DNA of 36,640 nt from an uncultured Spartobacteria bacterium (lineage in GTDB: Bacteria; Verrucomicrobiota; Verrucomicrobiia; Chthoniobacterales; Terrimicrobiaceae). How positions within the stretch are numbered: position 1 is the stretch's first letter; each line of letters opens with the position of its first letter. The notes under the pieces are model-generated. The model saw only the letters and a list, made by a program, of their open reading frames with translations. It had not been told where the DNA came from and made no database searches. The stretch covers positions 1 to 36,640 of the forward strand of contig CALFPA010000103.1 of NCBI GenBank assembly GCA_937919825.1. The letters run 5' to 3'. Position numbers and translations under genes: made by a program. This document shows, piece after piece, positions 3,036-28,935 of the stretch.

Positions 3036-5177
3036 ATGGCAGAGAAAACCAAGAAAAAACCTACCGAAAGCAAGCCGACGGCGACCGCCCGGCGATCGGG
3101 CGCTTCCACGCGTTCCACCCGTCCGGCCGCTGAATCACCGGCCCCCTCCCCTGCCAAAGAAAAGGAACCCAAAGTCCAAGGCCCGACCGTCGATCTCCTA
3201 AATCCGGAGAAAAAGGTCAAAAAAGTCTCCACCCGCGCGGGCATCAAGCCATTCGGCTCGAAAACCACGCCAACTCCTCCCCCACCTGCTCCCGAGCCAG
3301 AGCCTGTTGTTGAATCCACTCCCGCGCCCGAGACAGTCGTCGCCATCGAGTCTCCGGAGCCCGAGACGCCATCCGTGACCGAGGATTCCTCCGGCAAGAA
3401 AATCCTCCAAGTTAAGCCGCCGGTCAGCGTCAAAGTCCTCGCTGAACTTCTAGGCCTCAAGCCCTTCCAGCTCATCAAGGACCTCATGTCCTTGCAAATT
3501 TTCGCAAATCTCAACCAAACCGTGGAGGCCGATGTCGTCGCCAAGGTTTGTGACATTCACGGATTCATCTTCGAGCGAGAGAAAAAGGACACCTCCAAAG
3601 GCCATCACAAGGTCGAGCAGAAGGTCGAAGTTCCCAAAGCTCCCGAGCCCGAAAAACTCGTCGATAAGCTCCAACTCCGCGCCCCGATCATCACTTTCAT
3701 GGGCCATGTGGACCACGGCAAAACCTCGCTGCTCGACGCGATCCGCAAAGCCCGCGTGGCCGCTGGCGAAGCGGGTGGAATCACCCAGCACATCGGCGCT
3801 TACAGCGTCAACCGCAAGGGTCACAAAATCACTTTCCTCGACACCCCCGGCCACGCCGCCTTTACCGCCATGCGCGCCCGCGGTGCGAATGTTACCGACA
3901 TCGTAATCATCGTCGTCGCTGCCGATGACGGTCTCATGCCACAAACTCTCGAGGCCATTTCCCACGCCAAGGCCGCGAAGGTGAAAATCATGGTCGCCAT
4001 CAACAAAATCGACCTCGCCTCCGCCAATCCTGATCGCGTCAAAAAACAACTCCAAGAGCAGGGCCTCACTCCCGAGGACTGGGGTGGCGATACGATTTGT
4101 ATTCCTGTCAGCGCCACCAAAGGCACCGGCATCGACGAACTCCTCGACCTCATGCTCCTCGAAGCCGAAATGCTCGAACTCAAAGCCAGTAGCTCTGTGG
4201 ACGCCCGTGCCACCGTCATTGAGGCACAGGTCGAGCAAGGCCGCGGACCGACCGCTACGGTCATCGTCCGCATGGGCACCCTTCGCTACGGCGATGTGTT
4301 CATTTGCGGCAACCACTGGGGCAAGGTGAAACAACTCATCGACGACATGGGCAAGCCCGTGAAGGAAGCCGGCCCCTCGACCCCGGTGAAGATTCTTGGC
4401 CTCAGCGGCCTGCCCAACGCCGGCGATGAACTCGTCGTAATGGAATCGGAAAAATCCGCCCGCATTCACAGCGAGGAACGCCTTTCCGATCTCCGCGACT
4501 CGAAGCTCTCGACCCCGCAACGCGCCACTCTCGAGAACCTCTTCGCCAGCATCGCCTCGGAGGCCAAACCCTCCCTCAACGCGATCATCAAATGCGATGT
4601 CCAAGGCTCGCTCGAAGCCGTCGTCAACTCGCTCAAGGATATCCCTCAAAAGAAAATCTCCCTCGAGATCATCCACTCCGCCGTTGGGCCGATCACCGAG
4701 TCGGATGTCCTCCTCGCCAGCGCGTCAAACGCCATCATCATCGGCTTCGGCACCAAGACCGAAAACACCGCCGCGCAAGCCGCCAAGCGCGAAGGCATCC
4801 AGATCAAACTCTACAGCATCATCTACGAATTGATCGACCAGGTCCGCGAGGCCATGAGCGGATTGCTCGCGCCAGAACACCGCGAAACCGTCATCGGCCA
4901 CGCCGAGGTGAAGCAGGTTTTCGACCTCACCAAAGGCAAGGTTGCTGGTTGCGTCGTTACGGACGGACGCATCGCCCGCACCGCCCGTGCCCGCGTGTTG
5001 CGCCGCAAGCAGCCGATCTACGACGGCGGCCTCGCCACGCTTCGCCGCTTCACCGATGATGTGAAGGAAGTTCGCTCCGGTCTCGAGTGCGGCATCAAGC
5101 TGGGCGACTTCTCCGAATACCTGCCCGAGGACATCATCGAGTGCTACACACTCGAGAAAGTCCCTCAGCAACTCTGA
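3036..5177 (+). CDS. infB: Translation initiation factor IF-2
   Basis: GTPase that places initiator fMet-tRNA on the 30S subunit and promotes subunit joining. The 713-aa protein has a low-complexity Lys/Pro/Glu-rich N-terminus of about 130 residues. An IF2_N-like helical segment follows ([20 protein letters not shown]). The G domain starts near residue 217 with G1 [10 protein letters not shown]3 DTPGH, G4 NKID and G5 SATKG. The following beta-barrel and C-terminal initiator-tRNA-binding domains end in [12 protein letters not shown]. The N-terminus is shorter than in enterobacterial IF2. It lies between nusA and rbfA, the classic order. Confidence 0.99.
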
Positions 5178-6540: not shown

Positions 6541-7240
6541 CGGTGTTCTCCTAGTGGACAAGGCGCCGGGGATGACCTCGCACGATGTCGTCGCCATCAC
6601 CCGCCGCGCCCTCGACACCAAAAAAGTCGGCCACTGCGGCACCCTCGATCCCCTCGCGACCGGGCTCCTGATCCTCACCCTCGGCCGGGGAACAAAAATC
6701 CAAGACCTCCTCATGAGCGAGGACAAGGAGTATGTCGGCACCCTCCGCCTCGGCGAAACCACCGATAGCCAGGACTCCGACGGCCAGATCCTGGAAACCA
6801 AGCCCGTGCCAGATTTTTCCCAGGATCAAATTGAAGCCGCCTTCTCCAAATTTCATGGCGATTTCTACCAGACCCCGCCCATGGTCAGCGCGATCAAGAA
6901 AGACGGCGTGCCGCTCTACAAGCTCGCCCGCCAAGGCAAGACCGTCGAACGTGAACCGCGATTCGTGCATGTTTACGCCCATGAGATTCAGACGGTGCGC
7001 TTGCCGGAAATCGATTTTTGCGTCGTTTGCAGCAAGGGTTTCTATGTTCGCACCTACGCCCACGATATCGGGCAGGAACTCGGCTGCGGCGCTCATTTGA
7101 AATCCCTCCGCCGCACCAAGTCCGGCCGCTTCTCGGTGGACGGCGCGGTGACTGTGGAGGAACTCAAGAACGGCCCGCGCGAGGCGATCCTTCAGCGCGT
7201 TCTCAGCCTGCCCGCCGTCTCCCGCTTGCGCGGCGCGTGA
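6518..7240 (+). CDS. truB: tRNA pseudouridine-55 synthase TruB
   Basis: Forms pseudouridine 55 in the T-loop of elongator tRNAs. At 240 aa it is a compact TruB. It has GVLLVDKAPGMTSHDVV, the catalytic aspartate D44 in GHCGTLDPLATGLL, the TPPMVSAIKKDGVPLYKLAR segment, and GFYVRTYAHDIGQELG. The long C-terminal PUA domain of enterobacterial TruB is mostly absent. The start lies inside the nrnA 3' end (23-bp overlap), and the TGA shares its A with the ribF ATG (TGATG), so the genes are tightly coupled. Confidence 0.97.
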   Translation: MKSGTEIDGVLLVDKAPGMTSHDVVAITRRALDTKKVGHCGTLDPLATGLLILTLGRGTKIQDLLMSEDKEYVGTLRLGETTDSQDSDGQILETKPVPDFSQDQIEAAFSKFHGDFYQTPPMVSAIKKDGVPLYKLARQGKTVEREPRFVHVYAHEIQTVRLPEIDFCVVCSKGFYVRTYAHDIGQELGCGAHLKSLRRTKSGRFSVDGAVTVEELKNGPREAILQRVLSLPAVSRLRGA

Positions 7241-8181
7241 TGCGAGTCCTCCGATCCATCGAAGGGTTGGCGGAAATCCAAGGCCCGGTGGTGATAGCCG
7301 CTGGGGTTTTTGACGGAATGCACCTCGGGCATCAGGCGGTTCTCAGCGAGGCCCTGCGCGAGTCGAAAAAAATCGGAGCCACCGCCGTCGCTCTCACCTT
7401 CGATCCTCACCCGACAACTGTCCTTCGTCCGGACGCCGTGCCGGGGCTGCTCACGCCGACACCGTTTAAACTTCGGCTCATGGAGCGCATGGGCGTCACC
7501 CACGCGCTGGTGGTGACATTCGACAAGGACTTCGCCGCCCTGCAGGCCGAGGATTTCGTCGAACAACTCTGCGCCGCCGCGAATCCCCTTGCCGGCATCT
7601 GCATCGGCAAGGGCTGGGCCTTCGGCAACCAGCGGCGAGGAAACATCGACCTTCTCCGCCAACTCGGTCGCGAAAAAAATTTCTTCACCTGCGAGGTTCC
7701 GCCCGTTCGTATTGACGACATGGTGATCAGCAGCACGATGATCCGGCTCGCCCTTTCCGAGGGACGCCTCAGCGACGCTGGCCAACTCCTCGGGCGAGAC
7801 CACACCATTGCCGGCCCCGTCCTTCGCGGCGCGGGTCTTGGTCGCCAAATCGGCTTTCCCACCGCAAACCTTGCCACCGACCATCTCCAACTCCCGCCCG
7901 ACGGAGTCTACGCCGTCGAGGTTTTGGTCGAAGGAAAACCCCATCCCGGCGTGGCCAACCTCGGCATTCGTCCCACGGTCGATAAAACCCGGACCCGTCT
8001 CCTGGAAATCCATCTTTTCGATTACGCAGGCGACCTCTACGACCGCGAGGTCGAGGTCCGTCTGAAACATTTTCTCCGGCGCGAACAGCGTTTCGACTCG
8101 CTCGATCTTCTCAAAAGCCAGATCGCCCGCGACGCCGAGGCCGCTCGGGAATTCCTCGCCAACCAACCCGCCGCCGCATGA
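7240..8181 (+). CDS. ribF: Bifunctional riboflavin kinase / FAD synthetase
   Basis: Phosphorylates riboflavin to FMN and adenylates FMN to FAD. The 313-aa protein has the N-terminal adenylyltransferase domain with AAGVFDGMHLGHQAVL and FDPHPTTVLRP, and the IGKGWAFGNQRRGN loop. The C-terminal kinase domain (from about residue 185) has GRQIGFPTANL and GVANLGIRPT. The ATG at 7240 overlaps the truB stop. Upstream in-frame starts lie well inside truB and were rejected. Its own stop overlaps the start of the ATP-grasp gene (ATGA at 8178-8181), so a housekeeping gene is directly coupled to the less characterised genes that follow. Confidence 0.97.
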   Translation: MRVLRSIEGLAEIQGPVVIAAGVFDGMHLGHQAVLSEALRESKKIGATAVALTFDPHPTTVLRPDAVPGLLTPTPFKLRLMERMGVTHALVVTFDKDFAALQAEDFVEQLCAAANPLAGICIGKGWAFGNQRRGNIDLLRQLGREKNFFTCEVPPVRIDDMVISSTMIRLALSEGRLSDAGQLLGRDHTIAGPVLRGAGLGRQIGFPTANLATDHLQLPPDGVYAVEVLVEGKPHPGVANLGIRPTVDKTRTRLLEIHLFDYAGDLYDREVEVRLKHFLRREQRFDSLDLLKSQIARDAEAAREFLANQPAAA

Positions 8182-10694
8182 GCTCTCTCTGGCATTTCCG
8201 CACCTTTGACGAAAACTTTGGTCCGGACGGCCAGCCTCGCGAAGTCTATCGCGATCTCTTTGAGCGTCTGAACCGCCTCCCGCGCCACGAGGTGCGTGCG
8301 CTGGATGGCCGCCTAGAAGCCACTATGCGCGAGATGGGGGTGACCTTCGATATCTACCGCGAACTCCCATGGTGCAAACGCGGGTGGTTTTGCGACCTCC
8401 TTCCCCAGATTTTCACCCCGGCGGAATGGGATCCGCTCGCCGCCGGAATCCGCCAGCGGCTTCGCGCGTTCGAGATGTTCCTGCAGGACATCCACTCCAA
8501 AAAACAAATCCTCCTCGATGGCATTCTTCCCGAGCGACCTGTGCTCGGCAGTGAGTATTTCCAGCGGGCGGCATGTGGCGTGCCCGCGCCGGGCGGGGCG
8601 TTTTTGCACCTCAGCGGAGTGGCTGTTTGCCGCTTGCCCGACGGCCAACTCGCCGTGAAGCACCAATATTTCAGCAACGCGTCCGGCATTTCCTACATGA
8701 TGCAGAACCGCCGCGCGCTCACCCGCGTGATTCCGCAATCGTTCCAAGATACCGGCATTCACTCGATCTCGGATGTGCCGACCGGCATCGTCGAAACGCT
8801 CCGCGCCCACTCGGACGACGCCGATCCGATGGTCGTGCTCCTGACGCCCGGGCCGCTCAGCCCCGCCTACTCCGAGCACTGCTTCCTCGGCCGCCGCATG
8901 GGCATTCCGCTCGTGCAAGGCGGCGACCTCCTCGTTCTCAACGACAAGGTCTACCTGAAAACCGTCTCCGGCCTGAGCAAGGTCGGTGTCATCTACACCC
9001 GACTCTCCGACCGTTGGCTCGACCCGGTGGCCTTCCGCCGCGACTCGATGATCGGCGTTCCCGGCCTCGTCCATTGCATCCGGAAAAAAAGCGTCGCAGT
9101 CGTGAATGCCATAGGCGCGCAACTCGCTGACGATCGCGCGCTCCTGCCCTTCTCGGCCCAAATCATCCGCTACTACCTCGCCGAGCGTCCGCTCCTGCCG
9201 ACGGTGCCGACCTATTGGCTCGGCGATGTCGACCAGCGCCAGATGGTGCTCGACGATTTGCAGAACTTCACGATCCGCATTCTCTATGGCGAACGGATCG
9301 TTCTCGGTGGAGACGGGAATTTGCCCAGCCACGAAAAACTCGAAGCTGCCCGCGCCGAGATTTTGAAAAATCCAACGCAGTTTGTGGCCCAGCCGCAGGC
9401 TTGCGATGCGGAGACCATTTCGTTCCAGGACGGGGACCGCCGCCGCCGTCGGCAGGATCACATCATTTTCTCACTGCGCGAGGCCGACGGGGACCTCCGA
9501 GTTTTTCCGGGAGCGCTGACCCGCGTTTCCACCACCGAATCGGAATTCACCTCGTCGGAACTTGGCGGCGGTTCGAAAGACACTTGGGTGCAGGCCGGCG
9601 CGGATTCGCGGGCCGACGAGTGGGATGCCTCTCATCAGGCAGACAGTCAGATTCCCTCGCATGGAGTCACCAGCCGCGTGGCTGAGGCCTATTACTGGAT
9701 CGGCCGCTACCTCGAGCGTGCCTACGACCTCGCCGGAATGATCGGCGCGATCGAGTCGCTGGAACTCGAGGAATTGAATCCCGTCGAGCGAATGAACTAC
9801 CGCCCGGTCTGGAACCGCATCCTGCCGATGCTGGAAGTGGCCGGCTCCGCCTCGCGCCGCACGATTTCGAATCCAGAAGGTCGCTACCGATTGACCTTCG
9901 ATCCGTCCGAGCCCGGTTCCGTGCTGAGCACAATCCACCGCGCGTTCGCCAACGCCGAGTCTGTTTTGGAAACCCTGAGCCTCGAGGCGTGGGGCGTGAT
10001 GAGCCAGCTTCGCGAAAAATTCGATGCTGTGGCGTTCGATCCCGCCGCCCCGACCGAATCCCTCGCTGCCGCCAGTCGCGAGTTGTGCCTCTTCGCGCGT
10101 CAGGCGATCCCGCAATTTTTCGGAACCTCGAAAGTCACCATGCTCGCGGATGACGGTTGGAGTTTCTGTGAAATCGGCCAACTGATCGAGCGCGCGGCGA
10201 TCACGGCCAATGCCACAACCTCGCTTTCCGCCTCGCTGGTCGATCTGTCACGCGACCGCCATGGGCCTCACGCCCGCGAGATTCGGCTCTCCGCTTTTCT
10301 TCGAATGCTCGGCAGCCGCGACATCTACCGCCGTGTTTACCAGATGCGCATCGAGCCACTCCCGATGCTTGAGCTGCTCTGGAAAAATCCTGTCGCGCCC
10401 CGCTCGGTCCTGCGTTGCCTTACGGGCTGCGCCTCCCACACCCGCGAGAGCGAAAGCAATCTCTCCCCGGCCACCGGCCGAGCTCTCGCCGCGATCGAAG
10501 CGCTCCAGCAAGCGATCCGTAGCACCGATTGGGAAACGCTTCTGGAAATCCTCCCAGCCGGATCGGCGAAATCCAAACTCCAGGCCCACTCCGAGGATTT
10601 GCTGGCGCGCCTTCTCGCGCTACACACCACGATTTGCGACAGCTTCTTGAACCATCAGGTTCTCATCCACGGCGAGACGGAATCGCTTTTCTGA
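8178..10694 (+). CDS. Circularly permuted ATP-grasp / alpha-E fusion protein (predicted amidoligase)
   Basis: An 838-aa fusion. Residues about 1-480 are a circularly permuted ATP-grasp domain (DUF404/DUF407 type). Motifs include KHQYFSNASG, VVLLTPGPLSPAYSEH, a VGVIYTRLSDRWLDP strand, NAIGAQLADD, IRYYLAERPLLPTVPTYWLG, FVAQP, FPGALTRVS and GGGSKDTWV. From about residue 495 an alpha-E (DUF403) helical domain begins with SRVAEAYYWIGRYLERAYD and runs to the C-terminus. The family is predicted to make amide or peptide bonds with ATP, and such genes often sit beside transglutaminase-like proteases, as here. The real substrate is unknown. The VIY-R-R pattern known in many relatives reads VIYTR here. 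Its ATG overlaps the ribF stop, and a 3-bp gap separates it from the next gene. Confidence 0.93.
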   Translation: MSSLWHFRTFDENFGPDGQPREVYRDLFERLNRLPRHEVRALDGRLEATMREMGVTFDIYRELPWCKRGWFCDLLPQIFTPAEWDPLAAGIRQRLRAFEMFLQDIHSKKQILLDGILPERPVLGSEYFQRAACGVPAPGGAFLHLSGVAVCRLPDGQLAVKHQYFSNASGISYMMQNRRALTRVIPQSFQDTGIHSISDVPTGIVETLRAHSDDADPMVVLLTPGPLSPAYSEHCFLGRRMGIPLVQGGDLLVLNDKVYLKTVSGLSKVGVIYTRLSDRWLDPVAFRRDSMIGVPGLVHCIRKKSVAVVNAIGAQLADDRALLPFSAQIIRYYLAERPLLPTVPTYWLGDVDQRQMVLDDLQNFTIRILYGERIVLGGDGNLPSHEKLEAARAEILKNPTQFVAQPQACDAETISFQDGDRRRRRQDHIIFSLREADGDLRVFPGALTRVSTTESEFTSSELGGGSKDTWVQAGADSRADEWDASHQADSQIPSHGVTSRVAEAYYWIGRYLERAYDLAGMIGAIESLELEELNPVERMNYRPVWNRILPMLEVAGSASRRTISNPEGRYRLTFDPSEPGSVLSTIHRAFANAESVLETLSLEAWGVMSQLREKFDAVAFDPAAPTESLAAASRELCLFARQAIPQFFGTSKVTMLADDGWSFCEIGQLIERAAITANATTSLSASLVDLSRDRHGPHAREIRLSAFLRMLGSRDIYRRVYQMRIEPLPMLELLWKNPVAPRSVLRCLTGCASHTRESESNLSPATGRALAAIEALQQAIRSTDWETLLEILPAGSAKSKLQAHSEDLLARLLALHTTICDSFLNHQVLIHGETESLF

Positions 10695-10697
10695 ACC

Positions 10698-11564
10698 ATG
10701 CTGTTCGAAGTCGTCCACTCCACCTCCTACCGCTACGCCGAGACGGCGATGGAGGCGTATCTGGAGGCGCGACTCACCCCACCTGAACGCCCGACCCAGC
10801 AAATCCTCGCGCACCACATCGAATTTCTCCCGAACGCCCAAGCCTCCAGCTACACGGATTATTTCGGAAACCTGACGGCCTTCTACTCGATGACACTTCG
10901 GCATCCGCAGCTCAAGGTCGTCAACCGCTTGACCGCCCGCACCGCCACGCACCGACTCCCCGCCGGAGGCCTCGCGCCCTCCGTCGCCGAAACCCGCCAA
11001 ATCCTCGGTTCCGCTGGCCCTGTGATTTTCGACTACCTCCAGCCCACCCCGACGGTTCCGCTCGGAGGCCCTTCGTCCAACTGGGCGCGCGAATTTATTC
11101 GTCACAACCTCCCCCTCGGCGATTGCCTCGAGCGCCTGAACTCCGCAATTTTTTCCGAGTTTAAATACCACTCCGGCGCGACCGATGTGGACACCCCGCT
11201 GGACCAAGTCTGGGAGCGGCGCGAGGGCGTCTGCCAGGATTTCGCCCATGTCATGCTTTCGGTCCTCCGCACGGCGGGCATTCCCTGCCGTTATGTCTGC
11301 GGCTACATCGAGAGCGAACCGGCGGCGGACGGGCCCTTGATCGGCGCGGTCGCGACCCACGCTTGGGTCGAGGTTTTGGTTCCGGGCATGGAATGGGTCG
11401 CCCTCGACCCCACCAACAACAAATGGCAGGGCGAACAACATATCGTCGTGGCGGTGGGTCGCGACTACCTTGACACCACCCCGGTGAAGGGAACATTCAA
11501 AGGATCAGCCTCGCAAAAAATGAAGGTGCGTGTGACCATGCGCCGAATTCCTGAAAAACCATGA
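10698..11564 (+). CDS. Transglutaminase-like protein 1 (predicted cysteine peptidase/amidase)
   Basis: 288 aa. The N-terminal region (about 1-90, HSTSYRYAETAMEAYLEARL) matches the bacterial transglutaminase N-terminal beta domain. The core carries a complete triad: C179 in REGVCQDFAHVM, H221 in THAWVEV and D237 in ALDPTNN. Bacterial members of this family generally act as peptidases or amidases rather than crosslinkers. No signal peptide is apparent, so it is likely cytoplasmic. It starts 3 bp after the ATP-grasp/alpha-E gene, and its TGA overlaps the next ATG. The linkage fits a role in cleaving or editing the ATP-grasp product, which is inference. Confidence 0.93.
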   Translation: MLFEVVHSTSYRYAETAMEAYLEARLTPPERPTQQILAHHIEFLPNAQASSYTDYFGNLTAFYSMTLRHPQLKVVNRLTARTATHRLPAGGLAPSVAETRQILGSAGPVIFDYLQPTPTVPLGGPSSNWAREFIRHNLPLGDCLERLNSAIFSEFKYHSGATDVDTPLDQVWERREGVCQDFAHVMLSVLRTAGIPCRYVCGYIESEPAADGPLIGAVATHAWVEVLVPGMEWVALDPTNNKWQGEQHIVVAVGRDYLDTTPVKGTFKGSASQKMKVRVTMRRIPEKP

Positions 11565-12409
11565 AACTCAAAATCAAAAAGGAATCGCTCTACACCTACG
11601 CGGAGCCCATTTCATTCTCGCCCCACCATGTCCGGATTTTCCCCCGCATGGATTTGTCGGTGAAGGTCGAGAAAGTCGTTTTTTCCACATTGCCCGATGC
11701 GGATGTCCAATACCGACAGGACATTTTTGATAACCAGATCGCCTATTGTTTCTACCCGAAGCCGGGCTCGACTCTTTCTTTCGACATCGAGCTGGAACTC
11801 GAAGTGCGGGAGAAAAACCCCTTCCACTTCCTCCTTGAATCCACGGGCTTTAAAATCCCGCCGGAATACAAACCCGATCGCGCCGAAATTCTTGCTCCCT
11901 ACCTCCGCCACGAGGGATCTTGCAAACTTCCCGAGCCCCTGGCCCCCACCGTGGCTCGGCCGACCGTCGAAACGCTCGTAAATTTCAATTACTGGATCCA
12001 CGAAAATATCGCCTACGAGGCCCGCCTCCACGGAAAACCTTACACGCCAGAGGAAATTTTGAAAAAAGGCTCGGGCTCTTGCCGGGATTTCGCCGCATTG
12101 CTCGTCGAAGTGCTTCGCCAAAATGGTGTTGCCGCACGACTCGCCAGCGGGTTCGTGTGGGAGGGGGACAAGGCCGAGAAGGATAAACGCGCCTCCAGCG
12201 CGATGCACCTCTGGGTGGAAGCCTGCCTGCCTGGAGCTGGCTGGATCGGAATGGATCCCACGAATGGCGTTCTGACCGACCACCACTTCATCACGACAGC
12301 CGTCGGCCGCAACCACGAGGATGTTTCACCGATCTCCGGCGTTTTCTACTCCTCCAAACCCGTAGAGCATGAGCTGACAACTCAAGTCCGTGTCGAAAAA
12401 ACAGCGTGA
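11561..12409 (+). CDS. Transglutaminase-like protein 2 (predicted cysteine peptidase/amidase)
   Basis: 282-aa paralogue-like neighbour of the preceding gene with the same architecture but clearly different sequence. The N-terminal beta domain (KESLYTYAEPISFSPHHVRI) is followed by a transglutaminase core with C174 in GSCRDFAALL, H216 in MHLWVEA and D232 in GMDPTNG. The C-terminus ends in QVRVEKTA. No signal peptide is seen. It starts with an ATGA overlap, so the pair is probably translated together. Two different transglutaminase-like proteins beside one ATP-grasp/alpha-E protein is a recurring arrangement. The stop is followed by a 59-bp gap before the SDR gene. Confidence 0.92.
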   Translation: MKLKIKKESLYTYAEPISFSPHHVRIFPRMDLSVKVEKVVFSTLPDADVQYRQDIFDNQIAYCFYPKPGSTLSFDIELELEVREKNPFHFLLESTGFKIPPEYKPDRAEILAPYLRHEGSCKLPEPLAPTVARPTVETLVNFNYWIHENIAYEARLHGKPYTPEEILKKGSGSCRDFAALLVEVLRQNGVAARLASGFVWEGDKAEKDKRASSAMHLWVEACLPGAGWIGMDPTNGVLTDHHFITTAVGRNHEDVSPISGVFYSSKPVEHELTTQVRVEKTA

Positions 12410-14318: not shown

Positions 14319-16241
14319 GTGGCGCGTCTCCCCCTCCCCCTCCTCCTACTTCTCGTCCTCGCAGGAACAGGAACGCTCGCCGCCCTCGATCTTGCAAAAC
14401 CTCCCGATCCCAGGGAAATCCGATCACTGGCAGCCGATTCCTACCCCGCCATCGCGCACAAAATTTCCGTAGCCCTGATGGCAGCCTATGTCCCCGGTGC
14501 CCGCGGCCGGCCCGGCATTTCCGGAAACCCTGCGTTCTCCACATGGCTCGATTTTTACCGGGGCTGCGAGTTGTTGGCCCGCCCTTGCAGCGCCGAGACG
14601 ATCCCGCTCGTGCGACGCTACTTTTTCCGCGAACGGGCGACTGGAAAAATCTTCTTTCTCCAAACCGGAGTGGTTCGGCCAGAGGCTTTGGAGAGCCTGC
14701 CGGAGTCGGAATTGGCCGCCATGGCCGAGCACCAGCAAATCCGCGCCCGACTCGAAGAAGCCGCCCTGCCTCCGGGCTCGACTCTGGCCACCGGCACACT
14801 GGGCGAAATCGCGGGGACGAAATTATCGGGCGAGTTTCTTTCGAATCCCTCTTTCCTCGCGGCGTTCTTTTCAACGGTCTCGGAACGCGACTACACGCCG
14901 CTCGTTCTGAAAAATCTGCGCGAAATCCTCGAGTCCCAACCGGGCAAGTGGCGCGAATACCAAAACCTCGCCATCGCCCTCGCGGTGGTGAACGACTCGC
15001 CGCTGCCCGAGTTCTGGCCGCACATCCAAGTCACCCCCTCCCTCGTCCCAAAAGAAATCCCCTCGGTCAGTGCCCAATTCTCGCGCTGGGTCGCGGCCAA
15101 CGAGTCCAAAAAGCTCGACCATGACCTCCGCAAGCTCCCGCCCGACCAACTCAAATTCGTCGTGGATGCCTTTGTCACCGAATCCGAGATCGACTGGGCG
15201 CGGAAGAATGTTCGTTTCAGTCGCTCAAATTTCGACCGCGCCTTTTCCGAGGTCGCCTACCAGCCCGACCGCATCAAAAACAAACGCTTCTTCTGGAAAG
15301 CCTCGCCCTACACGCTCGAAAACATCCGTCGCACGGGTGGCATTTGTGTCGACCAAGCCTACTACGCCATGATCGCGGGAAAGGCCCACGGACTCCCGAC
15401 CCTCTTTTTCACCGGCCAAGGCAAGGACGGCGGCCACGCCTGGTTCGGCTACCTCAAGCGCGAAGACAAATGGGAACTCGATGTCGGCCGCTATGCCCAG
15501 CAGAACTACGCCATCGGCCAAGCCCTTGATCCACAATCTTGGCAACCGATCAGCGACCATCAACTCCAACTCCTCGCCGCGCGCTTTCGTGATAAACCCG
15601 AATTCGCCGCCTCGATGAACGACCTCGCCATGGCCTCGATCTTTGAAAAAAACGGGGATCTTGCCCGCGCCGATGCCGCCCTCGCGAGTGCGGTGCAAAC
15701 CTGTCCGAAAAATCCCGACGCTTGGGAACAGCGTGGCGAATTCCTTGCCCGCGCCAACGCGCCGCTGGAGCAGAGGCGCGAGTTTCACGAGGAGGCCATT
15801 CGCCGCCTCGGCTCCAGCCCCGACTTGAAAGTCCGCCACCAATCCGCCCTCGCCAACCTCCACCGCGAATCCGGCGACCAATCCTCCGCAAACAAAGTCG
15901 AGCGGGCGATCATGACCCAAAACCGCCGCGACCGCACCGACCTGAGCGTCGGCATCGCCGCGCAAAAAGTGAACGCCGCGATCGCCACCGGCGACCTCGA
16001 CGCCGCTGCGTCCGAGTTCCACAAACAACTCCACTCGATCGGAGAAAACGCTGGCGGCGATTTTGTGAAACAAGTCGGTGTGCCGTTTCTCGAAGCCCTG
16101 ATGAAGAACGGCAAAAACACACGCGCCCGCCGCGCCATCGACACCATGCGTCAGCAACTCTCCCCCGACCCCGGCAGCCTCCTCGACATGGCCCTCCGCG
16201 AACTCGAACTCTCGACCAAAAACCGCACAAAGGTTCCGTGA
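14319..16241 (+). CDS. Exported protein with divergent transglutaminase-like triad and C-terminal repeat region
   Basis: About 640 aa. The frame is open far upstream, but that part overlaps the prenyl synthase. GTG 14319 gives a convincing signal peptide (MARLPLPLLLLLVLAG...). TTG 14307 is an alternative. No named family is recognised for the first 320 residues. The central part resembles a transglutaminase/papain-like core: C343 in GGICVDQAYY, then LPTLFFTG, H373 in GHAWFGYL and D388 in WELDVGRY, in the right order and spacing. After residue 430, helical TPR-like segments follow (DLARADAALASAVQTCPKNPDAW). The likely location is the periplasm or envelope. This would be the third transglutaminase-fold protein in 6 kb. 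The fold is my inference from motif order and the enzymatic role is unknown. Confidence 0.78.
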   Translation: MARLPLPLLLLLVLAGTGTLAALDLAKPPDPREIRSLAADSYPAIAHKISVALMAAYVPGARGRPGISGNPAFSTWLDFYRGCELLARPCSAETIPLVRRYFFRERATGKIFFLQTGVVRPEALESLPESELAAMAEHQQIRARLEEAALPPGSTLATGTLGEIAGTKLSGEFLSNPSFLAAFFSTVSERDYTPLVLKNLREILESQPGKWREYQNLAIALAVVNDSPLPEFWPHIQVTPSLVPKEIPSVSAQFSRWVAANESKKLDHDLRKLPPDQLKFVVDAFVTESEIDWARKNVRFSRSNFDRAFSEVAYQPDRIKNKRFFWKASPYTLENIRRTGGICVDQAYYAMIAGKAHGLPTLFFTGQGKDGGHAWFGYLKREDKWELDVGRYAQQNYAIGQALDPQSWQPISDHQLQLLAARFRDKPEFAASMNDLAMASIFEKNGDLARADAALASAVQTCPKNPDAWEQRGEFLARANAPLEQRREFHEEAIRRLGSSPDLKVRHQSALANLHRESGDQSSANKVERAIMTQNRRDRTDLSVGIAAQKVNAAIATGDLDAAASEFHKQLHSIGENAGGDFVKQVGVPFLEALMKNGKNTRARRAIDTMRQQLSPDPGSLLDMALRELELSTKNRTKVP

Positions 16242-16290
16242 TCGATTCGAATTATCGCCAATCCTCCTCACGCCTGATTAAGTTTTCGAA

Positions 16291-24476: not shown

Positions 24477-25751
24477 ATGTTTGAGATCAAGGAAAAGCCA
24501 AAGATGGTGGAGAGCGCCCTACTTGTCGGGGCCTACACGCGCGACGAGGAGCGGGCCGTGGCGGACAGCCTGCTCGAGGAACTCGCGGAACTCGTCAACA
24601 CCCTCGGTATCCCGATCGTCGGCCGCGAACTCGTTCACCATCGCGAAAACCATGCGCGGTTCCTGATGGGCTCCGGCAAGGCCGAGGAGGTCGCCGCCCG
24701 TGCGAAGGAGCTCGCGGCGGATGTCGTCATTTTCGACAACGAACTCACGCCCTCCCAGCAGAGGAATTGGGAAAAACTCACCACCGGCCTCGTCATCGAC
24801 CGCCAGGAGGTGATTCTCGATATCTTCGCGAAGCGCGCGCACACCCGTGAGGCGCGGTTGCAGGTCGATCTTGCCCGCATGGAGTATTCCCTCCCCCGGC
24901 TCGTCCGAGCCTGGACCCACCTCGGCAAGCAGGGCGGCGGCATCGGCTCCAAGGGCGAGGGCGAATCCCAACTCGAGCAGGACAAACGCAAAATCCGGGG
25001 TCAAATCGATCGCCTCAAGCGCGACCTCGCCGCCGTGAAACTCCAGCGCGCCACCCAGCGCAAGGACCGCAAACGCGCCCCGGTGCCGAACGCCGCGATC
25101 GTCGGTTACACGAACGCCGGCAAATCCTCCCTCCTCCGCGCCCTCACCGGCGCCCAAGTCCTCGTCGAAGACAAACTCTTTGCCACCCTCGACACCACCA
25201 CGCGCAAGATCGAACTCCCGAACAACCAACCCCTCCTCCTCACCGACACCGTGGGGTTTGTCCGCAAGCTCCCGCACGGACTGGTCGAGGCCTTCAACGC
25301 CACGCTCGAGGAGGCAGTGCTCAGCGATTTTCTCATCCATGTTCTCGACGCCAGCCAGCCCGAGGTTTTGGAATTTTACGAAACGACCCGCTCTGTCCTC
25401 GCCGAACTCGGAGCCGACTCGCGGCGGACGCTGATCGTTTTCAACAAAATCGACGCCATCACCGAGCCCGACTCGATCCCCGCGTTGCGCGACCGTTTTG
25501 CCGACGCGGTCTTTATTTCGGTAAAAACCGGCGCCGGTCTGCCCGAACTCATCGCCCGTATCTCGGAATTTGTTGCCGACGATCTGATCACGCTCGAACT
25601 CCGCATCCCCCAATCCCGCGCCGACCTCATCGCCCGCCTGCACCGCGATGCGGACATCCGCCACACGGACTACGAGGGAAACGATGTTATCCTCCGCGCC
25701 CGCCTCGCCCCCCGCGCCGCCGCCGCCTACGCGGAGTTCACTCAAGATTGA
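24477..25751 (+). CDS. hflX: GTPase HflX
   Basis: Ribosome-associated GTPase that rescues or splits stalled or hibernating 70S ribosomes under stress. The 424-aa protein has the N-terminal HflX domain (FLMGSGKAEEVAA, FDNELTPSQQRNWE, DRQEVILDIFAKRAHTREA). The linker contains the glycine-rich GKQGGGIGSKGEGESQLE and a coiled-coil helix. The G domain has G1 GYTNAGKSS from residue 210, G2 ATLDTTTR, G3 DTVGF and G4 NKID. Length is typical. ATG 24477 gives the usual N-terminus. A candidate promoter lies in the 70 bp between its stop and the iron-regulator gene. Confidence 0.97.
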   Translation: MFEIKEKPKMVESALLVGAYTRDEERAVADSLLEELAELVNTLGIPIVGRELVHHRENHARFLMGSGKAEEVAARAKELAADVVIFDNELTPSQQRNWEKLTTGLVIDRQEVILDIFAKRAHTREARLQVDLARMEYSLPRLVRAWTHLGKQGGGIGSKGEGESQLEQDKRKIRGQIDRLKRDLAAVKLQRATQRKDRKRAPVPNAAIVGYTNAGKSSLLRALTGAQVLVEDKLFATLDTTTRKIELPNNQPLLLTDTVGFVRKLPHGLVEAFNATLEEAVLSDFLIHVLDASQPEVLEFYETTRSVLAELGADSRRTLIVFNKIDAITEPDSIPALRDRFADAVFISVKTGAGLPELIARISEFVADDLITLELRIPQSRADLIARLHRDADIRHTDYEGNDVILRARLAPRAAAAYAEFTQD

Positions 25752-25783
25752 GCCAGAGCCTTTTTGGCTTTCCTCTCTAGGCT

Positions 25784-25812
25784 TTGACATCTCCTCGCCA
25801 CCGACGCATTTT
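25784..25812 (+). promoter_or_regulatory. Candidate promoter of the feo genes
   Basis: TTGACA at 25784-25789, a perfect -35 match, is followed after 17 bp by CATTTT at 25807-25812, which matches the -10 consensus at three positions. It sits just upstream of the DtxR-FeoA fusion gene (ATG 25822), giving a nearly leaderless transcript or requiring a start slightly further in. No obvious Fur or DtxR box was recognised around it. Confidence 0.38.
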
Positions 25813-25821
25813 CTTGGACTC

Positions 25822-26745
25822 ATGCCCTACCGAATCGGGGAGTCCAACGCGGTCGATGTCCTGCAGGTCCAAGCCGGGGATGCTCTCAAGCATCTCCATG
25901 AGTCCGAATATTCCAAAACTTCGGCGACGACCGCGAGCGTGGCGGGGGCTTTGTGCATCAGCCTCCAGCGGGCCGGCGAGATCGTCGGGGAACTCGCGCG
26001 CGCCGGCCTGGCGGACTCGCACGGACCATCGATTCAGTTGACCGGGGCTGGACGCGAGGAAGCCCGCCATTTGCTGCGCGCCCACCGGCTCTACGAAACC
26101 TATCTTGCCAACGAGACGGGCGTGGCGACCGAGGATTGGCACCGGCGCGCGGATTTGGTTGAGCATACTCTAACGCGCCAAGAGGTCGACGCGCTCTCGA
26201 ACCGCCTCGGGCGCCCGCCCTATGATCCGCACGGCGACCCGATTCCCACGCGCGACGGCTCGCTACCACCGCAACGAGGCCGACCGCTGCTCGAAATGCC
26301 GGAAGGCTCCTCGGCCGAAGTTGTCCACCTCGAGGACGAGCCCGCGAGCGTTTACCGCCAGGCGGCGGATGCGGGGATTTTGCCCGGCGCGCGGATGCAG
26401 ATTTTGCGCCGCGGAGCGGATTTTTTGCGAGTGGCCGTCGAGGACCGTGAGTGCGAACTGCCACTGGTCGTTGCCGGCGCGATTCAAGTGGAACCCTGCG
26501 AGACTCCGCCGGCGGTGAAGCCACTTTCCTCGCTGAGCCGGGGAGAGTTCGGGCGCATCGCGAGTCTTTCGGCAACGCTGGTTGGAGGGGAGCGCCGGCG
26601 GATGCTCGATCTCGGGCTTGTGCCCGGCACGAAAATCGAGCGGGATTTCGACAGCATGTTTAGCAGCCCCACCGCCTATCGCGTGCGCGGCGCCGTGATT
26701 GCCCTCCGGCGCGAGCAGGCGGAGCGGATTTTTTTAGAGGCCTAA
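25822..26745 (+). CDS. DtxR/MntR-type metalloregulator fused to two FeoA (SH3-like) domains
   Basis: 307 aa. Residues about 1-75 form a DtxR winged helix-turn-helix (TTASVAGALCISLQRAGEIV). The dimerisation and metal-binding domain follows (about 76-140). H88 and E92 (AHRLYE), H107 (DWHRRAD) and E115-H116 (LVEH) align with known metal ligands. The position of DtxR Cys102 is D111 here. PYDPHGDPIPT closes this domain. Then come an SH3-like FeoA domain (about 165-225) and a second one (about 235-305, SLSRGEFGRIASL, MLDLGLVPGTKIE). It should sense Fe(II) or Mn(II) and repress transcription. Location directly before feoB suggests it controls iron uptake, and the FeoA parts may also contact FeoB. 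A 4-bp gap separates it from the next gene. Confidence 0.9.
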   Translation: MPYRIGESNAVDVLQVQAGDALKHLHESEYSKTSATTASVAGALCISLQRAGEIVGELARAGLADSHGPSIQLTGAGREEARHLLRAHRLYETYLANETGVATEDWHRRADLVEHTLTRQEVDALSNRLGRPPYDPHGDPIPTRDGSLPPQRGRPLLEMPEGSSAEVVHLEDEPASVYRQAADAGILPGARMQILRRGADFLRVAVEDRECELPLVVAGAIQVEPCETPPAVKPLSSLSRGEFGRIASLSATLVGGERRRMLDLGLVPGTKIERDFDSMFSSPTAYRVRGAVIALRREQAERIFLEA

Positions 26746-26749
26746 AGGA

Positions 26750-27520
26750 ATGTCGAACTGCGCACCCACAACCTGCGAGACCTGCCCAAGCCCTCACGCG
26801 GAACTCCGCCGACTGGGCTCGAAGTCGGACCGCTGGGACCATACCGTCGCCCTCGCGGGAAACCCGAATGTCGGCAAAAGCACGGTCTTCAATCTCCTTA
26901 CCGGCCTGCGTCAACACACCGGAAACTGGCCTGGGAAAACCGTCTCCCGTGCCGAGGGGGCATTCGATCTCGACAGCCGACGCTACAAAATTGTCGATCT
27001 GCCGGGCACTTATTCCCTCCTTGGAACCACGCCCGACGAGGAAGTGGCAAGGGAATTCCTGCTCTTCGGCAAACCGGATGTGACGCTTGTCGTGGCCGAC
27101 GCTACCTGCCTCGAACGCAACTTCATCCTGCTCCTGCAAATCCTCCAGATCACTCCGAGGGTTGTTCTTTGCATCAATCTCCTCGACGAGGCGCGCGCCC
27201 ATGGGATCGACATCGACACGCGAGGACTCTCGCGCGAGTTGGGAATTCCCGTCGTGGGCACGGCCGCTAGACGCGGCGAGGGTTTGGCGGAATTACTCTC
27301 GGCCGTGCGTGATGTGGCTACCGGAGCGTTTGTTTGCGCGCGCCAGGCTCCTGAGTTTGTTCCGGCCGCCCTCCGTGACGCAGTGGGAAAACTTTCTCAA
27401 AAACTCGGCGCCACCTATCCCTCGATGGAAAATCCTTCATGGATCGCTCTGCGCCTTCTCGAGGGCGATCCCCGCATCGTCGCCGCGCTGAAAAACGGGG
27501 AGTTCAGTTCCGCCACATGA
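26750..27520 (+). CDS. feoB: Ferrous iron transport protein B, GTPase half (split FeoB, N-terminal)
   Basis: 256 aa corresponding to the cytosolic part of FeoB. The G motifs are G1 GNPNVGKST (37-45), the G2 region NWPGKTVS, G3 DLPGTYSLL, G4 NLLDEA and G5 GTAARRGEG. A helical GDI-like region continues to WIALRLLEGDPRI. The protein stops just before the membrane part of a normal FeoB (700-800 aa in one chain). The N-terminus is Cys-rich (C4, C9 and C12, CAPTTCETC), which is unusual for FeoB. The stop overlaps the ATG of the membrane half (ATGA), so the halves are coupled. It is most likely a true split gene. A frameshift is the alternative. Confidence 0.92.
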   Translation: MSNCAPTTCETCPSPHAELRRLGSKSDRWDHTVALAGNPNVGKSTVFNLLTGLRQHTGNWPGKTVSRAEGAFDLDSRRYKIVDLPGTYSLLGTTPDEEVAREFLLFGKPDVTLVVADATCLERNFILLLQILQITPRVVLCINLLDEARAHGIDIDTRGLSRELGIPVVGTAARRGEGLAELLSAVRDVATGAFVCARQAPEFVPAALRDAVGKLSQKLGATYPSMENPSWIALRLLEGDPRIVAALKNGEFSSAT

Positions 27521-28935
27521 GTCCAACCGAAGAAATCCTCCTCGACGCCGAGTCGGCCAGATGGGAGCTAGGCCCCCGCTTTCAGGATGAAGTGGCGGCG
27601 CGAGTTAGCGAGGAAGCCTCGCACCTCGCCTCGCGACACATGCACCGAAAGGGGGATGGTTCGCGATTGCGTTGGCAGCGCGGGCTGGACCGGGTTTTGA
27701 CCAGCCGAATCACCGGGATTCCGGCGATGGCGTCGATTTTTGCCATCGTGCTCTGGCTCACGATCGAAGGCTCGAATGTGCCCTCCGCCATGCTGGCGGA
27801 GCTTTTGGTGGACACCCTGCACCCCTGGCTGAAAGCCCATGCGCTCGCGCTCGGCATGTGGGCTTGGCTTGCCGGTTTATTGATCGACGGCATGTATCTC
27901 TCCGGCGCCTGGGTGGTCAGCGTGATGCTTCCACCGATGGCGATTTTTTTCCCGCTCTTCACGCTCCTCGAGGATTTCGGATATCTGCCGCGTGTGGCGT
28001 TCAACCTCGACCGGCTCTTTCAAAAAGCGGGCGCCCACGGCAAGCAGGCCCTCACGATGACGATGGGCCTCGGCTGCAACGCCGCTGGCGTCGTGGCCAC
28101 GCGCATCATCGATTCCCCGCGCGAACGGCTCATCGCGATCCTCACGAACAATTTCTCTCTTTGCAACGGCCGCTGGCCCACCCAAATCCTGATGGCCACC
28201 GTCTTCCTCGGAGCCGTGGCCCCGCCGGCGCTCGCGGGCGTGGTCGCCGCTGGTTCTGTTTTTTGCGTGGCGGTGCTCGGGTTTCTTTTTGCCTTCGGGA
28301 GTTCCTGGCTGCTCTCGCGCACGGTGCTCAAGGGCGAGTCCTCCACTTTCAGCCTCGAGCTTCCGCCCTACCGCCCTCCGAACCTGCTTCGCACGCTGCA
28401 CACCTCGCTCGTGGACCGCACCATTATCGTTCTCTGGCGCGCGGTGGTTTTTGCCGTTCCCGCCGGCGCGGTGATTTGGCTCTCGGCGAATGTGAGTGTC
28501 AGCGGCCACAGCGTGGCCTGGTGGGCGATCGGAGCCCTCGACCCGCTCGCGTGGGTGATGGGCCTCACCGGCGTGATTCTTTTCGCCTATGTGATCGCCA
28601 TTCCCGCCAACGAGATCGTGGTGCCGACGATTTTGATGCTGACCGTTCTGGTTTCCGGAACGCCTGTGGCCGATGCGCCGGGCGTGGGAGTGATGTTCGA
28701 GGCGGACGACAGCACCCTTCACACAATGCTCGTCTCGGCCGGTTGGACCACTCTCACCGCAGTGTGCCTGATGCTCTTCAGCCTCCTGCACAACCCATGC
28801 TCCACCACGCTCTACACGATCCAAAAAGAAACCGGCAATTGGCGTTGGACCGCCCTCTCCGCCGCGCTCCCACTCGCTCTGGGGTTTCTCGTGTGCACCG
28901 CCGTGGCCTTCGTCTGGCGCCACTTCGCGGGGTGA
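27517..28935 (+). CDS. feoB: Ferrous iron transport protein B, membrane half (split FeoB, C-terminal)
   Basis: 472 aa forming the Fe(II) permease part of FeoB. It begins with a short cytosolic helix (EEILLDAESARW), and the LDRVLTSRITGIPAM element normally found before the first membrane helix follows. About eight hydrophobic segments follow. Conserved FeoB elements are the first gate motif MGLGCNAAGVVATRIID with its Cys, the second Cys-containing segment FSLCNGRWPTQ, PANEIVVPTILM, and the C-terminal HNPCSTTLYTIQKETG. ATG 27517 overlaps the stop of the GTPase half. The open frame upstream of it does not look like FeoB. Together the two halves would make a complete FeoB. Confidence 0.92.
   Translation: MSPTEEILLDAESARWELGPRFQDEVAARVSEEASHLASRHMHRKGDGSRLRWQRGLDRVLTSRITGIPAMASIFAIVLWLTIEGSNVPSAMLAELLVDTLHPWLKAHALALGMWAWLAGLLIDGMYLSGAWVVSVMLPPMAIFFPLFTLLEDFGYLPRVAFNLDRLFQKAGAHGKQALTMTMGLGCNAAGVVATRIIDSPRERLIAILTNNFSLCNGRWPTQILMATVFLGAVAPPALAGVVAAGSVFCVAVLGFLFAFGSSWLLSRTVLKGESSTFSLELPPYRPPNLLRTLHTSLVDRTIIVLWRAVVFAVPAGAVIWLSANVSVSGHSVAWWAIGALDPLAWVMGLTGVILFAYVIAIPANEIVVPTILMLTVLVSGTPVADAPGVGVMFEADDSTLHTMLVSAGWTTLTAVCLMLFSLLHNPCSTTLYTIQKETGNWRWTALSAALPLALGFLVCTAVAFVWRHFAG

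Follow-up and report, generated by a model that had tools for sequence, protein, structure and literature searches.

The role of the widespread gene sets that combine ATP-grasp and Alpha-E domains with transglutaminases, together with either Anbu or DUF2126, has been in question since these sets were predicted. One of them lies directly behind ribF in the window analyzed here (36,640 nucleotides, the whole of a contig from a 2.71-Mb, 99% complete genome), and it raises the question of whether such a set still makes and cleaves an amide linkage, as a sequence-only reading had proposed. The named relatives of the source genome are Chthoniobacterales/Spartobacteria of the Verrucomicrobiota, the nearest being a Lake Pavin metagenome genome (92%). 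Genera and families are labeled g1, g3, f6 and so on, and genomes G000, G001 and so on; the source genus is g1 and its own genome G000. The features of the locus are as follows.

7240..8181, plus strand: ribF, bifunctional riboflavin kinase/FAD synthetase (NF004160 above cut-off, TIGR00083); its stop overlaps the fusion start (ATGA)
8178..10694, plus strand: CP-ATP-grasp/Alpha-E fusion of 838 aa, type A, a probable pseudo-ligase (Pfam; predicted fold; catalytic residues replaced)
8403..9530, plus strand: CP-ATP-grasp domain of the fusion, aa 76-451 (CP_ATPgrasp_2/1; Pfam)
8622..8669, plus strand: Mg-ligand hairpin of the fusion, with A149, H162 and Y164 at the positions of D, E and N in type B and E. 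coli GspS
9135..9278, plus strand: ATP-lysine positions of the fusion, with both lysines replaced by arginine (R320 and R367) and the SGGYG glycine-rich loop missing after R367 (alignment)
9669..10649, plus strand: Alpha-E helical domain of the fusion, aa 498-824 (Pfam), both ER motifs retained (E513-R514, E671-R672)
10698..11564, plus strand: TG1, transglutaminase-like thiol enzyme of 288 aa, triad C179/H221/D237
11561..12409, plus strand: TG2, transglutaminase-like thiol enzyme of 282 aa, triad C174/H216/D232

Pfam searches bore out the families first assigned to the fusion, TG1 and TG2, none of which matches an NCBIfam model, and the tight chaining of the four genes also held, with an ATGA overlap between ribF and the fusion, a 3-bp gap before TG1 and a second ATGA overlap between TG1 and TG2. 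Since CP_ATPgrasp_1/2 and Alpha-E are carried by a single ORF, the first protein belongs to the CP-ATP-grasp and Alpha-E fusion family, while TG1 and TG2 each contain Bact_transglu_N and Transglut_core. Profile matches identified NusA, IF-2, RbfA, a DHH phosphoesterase and TruB upstream, and a short-chain dehydrogenase (SDR) and a polyprenyl synthetase downstream. Between positions 5000 and 14500 no sigma-70 promoter-like site was found, an uninformative result with 1.6 expected by chance, and no small ORF for a tag precursor adjoins the set, in which intergenic gaps do not exceed 3 bp, with 59 bp after TG2. Elsewhere in the window, a minus-strand ORF of 348 aa (15225-16271) has no Pfam match and is partly conserved in the nearest relative, and positions 25648-28932 form an apparently ordinary ferrous-iron uptake region, in which the gene for a fusion of an iron-dependent repressor with FeoA domains precedes that for a FeoB-like C-terminal/Gate protein.

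The set had been likened to those found beside the proteasome-like Anbu, with the remark that Anbu is missing from the window. This absence extends to the whole 99% complete genome and to the entire genus (0/16 genomes), as judged with an Anbu protein from the same order as query, given that the PF00227 profile alone overlooks the diverged Anbu of this order. The same query matched g3 and g13 at 52-54% identity, and also g24, g32 and two f6 genomes, in each case on a contig other than that of the type A set or at a great distance from it. The locus contains neither an Anbu gene nor separate ATP-grasp and Alpha-E genes. An Anbu-type identity was rejected on the grounds that Anbu occurs in none of the 16 congeners and that the ATP-grasp and Alpha-E domains share one ORF. 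The analogy was thus misplaced, as the companion of the fused type in this order is DUF2126, which has been lost here.

A tree of the ATP-grasp half resolved three clades, which we named types A, B and C in this analysis: type A is that of the window and fused, in type B the ATP-grasp and Alpha-E genes are split, as they are in Anbu operons, and type C is fused and stands beside a full TG-DUF2126 protein. Type A was found in this order only, both in the phylum sample, where sequences of other orders reach at most 40% identity, and in a pattern-based scan of genome contigs. A fused protein also occurs in the cultivable Chthoniobacter flavus Ellin428 (L070). The source genome has type A in the window and type B on contig C91, where locus L033 (5799-9669, minus strand) encodes a GNAT acetyltransferase, an intact split ATP-grasp (485 aa), an Alpha-E protein (319 aa) and a squalene/phytoene synthase, with neither a transglutaminase nor Anbu at that locus. 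The GNAT-ATP-grasp-Alpha-E order recurs in g1, g3, g4 and f6.

To locate the catalytic positions, type B was placed in a multiple alignment with E. coli GspS, YgiC and YjfC, in which identity to GspS is low. The GspS residues (letters verified in its sequence) D318, E330 and N332, which we take to be Mg ligands, and K498 and K533, presumably the ATP lysines, correspond to D153, E166, N168, K326 and K373 of the type B protein of the source genome, and a profile-profile alignment independent of MAFFT matched identical columns. All five positions are kept in 15/15 type B proteins and none is kept in 48 of the 49 type A proteins, including that of the window, which also lacks the glycine-rich loop. 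The claim that the set both makes and cleaves an amide is not supported, and the absence of these residues is an outcome that the sequence-only reading had itself named as refuting. Relatives that retain DUF2126 carry the same replacements, so the residue changes are older than the loss of DUF2126. Outside the order, the fused proteins of the TG-DUF2126 sets of Granulicella (L160) and Caballeronia (L161) are likewise degenerate at these residues; none of the five has been replaced in the split proteins of Klebsiella (Anbu operon), Deinococcus, A. caldus and Caballeronia. A rule emerges from the sequences examined: a split ATP-grasp keeps its catalytic residues and one fused in a set with DUF2126 does not. 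On the plasmid of Caballeronia sp. Sq4a (L161, 3234-14039) an intact split ATP-grasp/Alpha-E pair clusters with TG-DUF2126, a degenerate fusion and a TG, an arrangement suggesting that an active ATP-grasp can operate alongside a pseudo form. From these comparisons, the ATP-grasp domain of the fusion is probably a pseudo-ligase.

Absence of the canonical residues is no proof of lost catalysis, because the K to R changes are conservative and residues that are newly invariant in type A (H163, Q176, R320, H428, C72, C300, D350 and D352) could form a different active site. The fusion might then still be an ATP-using amide ligase with a rebuilt site, in which His, Tyr and Arg stand in for Asp, Glu, Asn and Lys, and would complete with the two transglutaminases a full cycle in which a peptide or protein tag is made and cleaved. 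Its predicted structure (mean pLDDT 85) retains the fold fully (3n6x Z 39.3, glutathione synthetases about 22, GspS about 20), the new residues do not vary within the order, and the ATP-grasp half is under strong purifying selection (dN/dS 0.066, with 0.059 for the Alpha-E half). However, 48 of 49 proteins have lost the three Mg ligands together with the glycine-rich loop, whereas the split paralog in the same genomes is intact, and the ancestral set already had a separate GS-like ligase, so that we regard a rebuilt ligase as unlikely. Slightly less probable again is that H163, Q176, R320, D427-H428 and their neighbors, which are invariant or nearly so throughout the order, constitute a new metal- or nucleotide-dependent site that carries out a different reaction with the two thiol amidases. 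None of the papers searched was found to report an experiment on a fused member, and on catalytic residues and DUF2126 the literature search gave nothing usable.

In g3, g4, g5 and other families a DUF2126 domain of 650-700 residues either comes directly after TG2 or forms one protein with it, and TG2 of the window is the counterpart of the N-terminal TG domain of the TG-DUF2126 proteins of these relatives, minus the DUF2126 part. A structural model of DUF2126 (mean pLDDT 84) gave glutamine synthetases and gamma-glutamylmethylamide synthetase as top matches, with weak scores, and TG-ligase fusions such as Rv2566 have been described as GS-fold carboxylate-amine ligases (PMC2588565). Because fusion coincides with a dead or altered ATP-grasp site in the sequences examined, the ligase role would shift to DUF2126, which is the more likely ligase of the fused sets. 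The set of the window combines a fused ATP-grasp-Alpha-E protein with two TG modules and encodes no DUF2126 with them. None was detected at the locus throughout genus g1, nor anywhere in the genome in 14/16 congeners, including the source genome and one that is 100% complete; G004 and G007 of the same genus have DUF2126 at separate genomic sites, with its invariant residues present. Neither the window, including the surroundings of TG2, nor the second locus holds a remnant of DUF2126. DUF2126 is also missing from G036 and from seven f12 genomes that retain the rest of the set, and at least three losses are likely, a count that excludes G045 and G061, in which contig ends interrupt the locus.

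What remains after this loss does not look like an accidental assembly. Among 97 relatives surveyed, 59 have a type A fusion, and TG1 of the kind found in the window is present in 57 of these 59 and in none of the 38 others (Fisher p 6e-25, not corrected for kinship); of the two exceptions, one is an 86% complete genome and the other a contig end. The co-occurrence of fusion and TG1 is not due to chance. The Cys-His-Asp triads of TG1 and TG2 are complete, as first noticed in the sequence, and are invariant in 23/23 aligned TG1/TG2 sequences, from which a role of both proteins as thiol hydrolases or transferases acting on amide bonds is predicted. In three species (G001, G009 and G015; loci L152, L154 and L153, respectively) TG1 is gone from the operon and a different TG1 is found at a distant site, where it clusters with genus g4 and not with the operon copies (tree support 93/91). 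This distant TG1 adjoins a YacP-like (YacP/NYN-domain) gene, and in G025 the whole set lies beside such a gene. That TG1 was replaced in trans is good evidence that a TG1 has to accompany the fusion and TG2.

Relative to the nearest relative, dN/dS was 0.067 for the fusion, 0.133 for TG1 and 0.097 for TG2, with 0.171 for ribF and 0.116 for the SDR gene, and thus the set is maintained by purifying selection despite the loss of DUF2126. This selection and the replacement of TG1 in trans show that the remaining genes function jointly. These data also bear on the idea that the set is a degenerating leftover, which has survived the loss of DUF2126 only through its location in an essential operon. 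The loss itself, the degenerate ATP-grasp site and a fast-evolving copy in one congener (G006) would fit such decay, but dN/dS values of 0.07-0.13 are near those of the neighboring genes, both triads are intact, TG1 was replaced in trans in three species and the residue changes predate the loss. We consider this reading very improbable and rejected a decaying remnant on the strength of dN/dS and TG1 replacement. The G006 copy (L037, 5057-7456) sits on a long branch at the same ribF junction, its identity of 46-48% comparing with 67-92% in the other congeners, and reflects either fast evolution or replacement in place.

The tie to ribF, from which expression at housekeeping level had been derived, proved to be genus-wide, as every congener whose junction is assembled (15/15) shows the ATGA overlap of ribF and fusion. 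It is fixed within the genus but is not general, given that in g3, g4, g5 and nearly all others, including most other families, ribF lies apart from the set. Movement of the set without ribF, the other outcome named beforehand as refuting, is seen outside the genus. In G026, which belongs to another family, an M24 metallopeptidase gene is located between ribF and the fusion (L084, 3445-8101); with this arrangement, proximity to ribF may have evolved twice or may predate the genus. Because ribF and the set are apart in other genera, a functional connection to riboflavin is unlikely. The link is consistent with steady co-expression and not with a shared pathway, and expression of the set at housekeeping level is plausible.

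The explanation that we favor, with somewhat better than even confidence, is that of a reduced, vertically inherited set in which a pseudo-ligase/Alpha-E platform serves two thiol amidases or transamidases. The ancestral set in this order of bacteria would have had four parts, namely fusion, TG1, TG2 and DUF2126 amidoligase; genus g1 has lost the last and has the other three behind ribF, where they are probably translated in a coupled manner with the nusA-infB-truB-ribF operon. The fusion's ATP-grasp, devoid of Mg-ATP residues, most likely performs no ligation and may bind or present the substrate together with Alpha-E. The cysteine of TG1 or TG2 would then attack an amide or isopeptide bond, leading to hydrolysis or to transfer to another amine. 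For any amide synthesis that remains, the likeliest ligase would be the intact split ATP-grasp/Alpha-E pair on the other contig, which could supply the product in trans.

This split pair could also have a more specific part, in nitrogen storage or peptide recycling, if TG1 and TG2 hydrolyze a reserve or tag polymer made by it and the fusion acts as recognition subunit. The split ATP-grasp is intact in 16/16 congeners, the split ATP-grasp of the Yersinia Anbu operon frees phosphate from ATP (PMC6376114), nitrogen limitation induces Anbu (PMC6376114, PMC5666114), and in marine metagenomes domains of this kind are correlated with those of urea metabolism (PMC3597751). Yet no direct link was found between the split-pair and fused-set loci, and the split pair also occurs in genomes that do not have the fused set. 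Such a role is a fairly improbable alternative to the reduced set with a pseudo-ligase platform.

The locus represents a reduced form of a peptide-ligation/peptidase system that had been predicted before. Genus g1 can be regarded as a natural knock-out of the DUF2126 ligase in which the rest is under selection, thereby separating the two halves of the system, and its set offers a minimal version for experiments.

Compared with known systems, the set resembles those of the TG-DUF2126 kind (Rv2566-type, as in Granulicella L160 and Caballeronia L161) in its fused ATP-grasp-Alpha-E protein beside two TG modules and in its degenerate catalytic residues, but in genus g1 DUF2126 is absent, TG2 stands alone, the set is linked to ribF and the ATP-grasp falls in a separate clade. 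With the Anbu operon (split ATP-grasp, Alpha-E, TG and Anbu; Klebsiella L164) it shares the same domain families except Anbu, whereas here the ATP-grasp is fused to Alpha-E with its residues replaced, there are two TGs and the genome has no Anbu. The fold of the N-terminal half of the fusion is common to the ATP-grasp carboxylate-amine ligases GspS, YgiC and YjfC and to eukaryotic glutathione synthetase (Z 18-23), of whose five catalytic residues the fusion retains none. The closest solved structure, M. flagellatus Mfla_0391 (PDB 3n6x, 34-35% identity), is unlike the fusion in being of the split type, with an intact ExN motif and glycine-rich loop and no Alpha-E domain.
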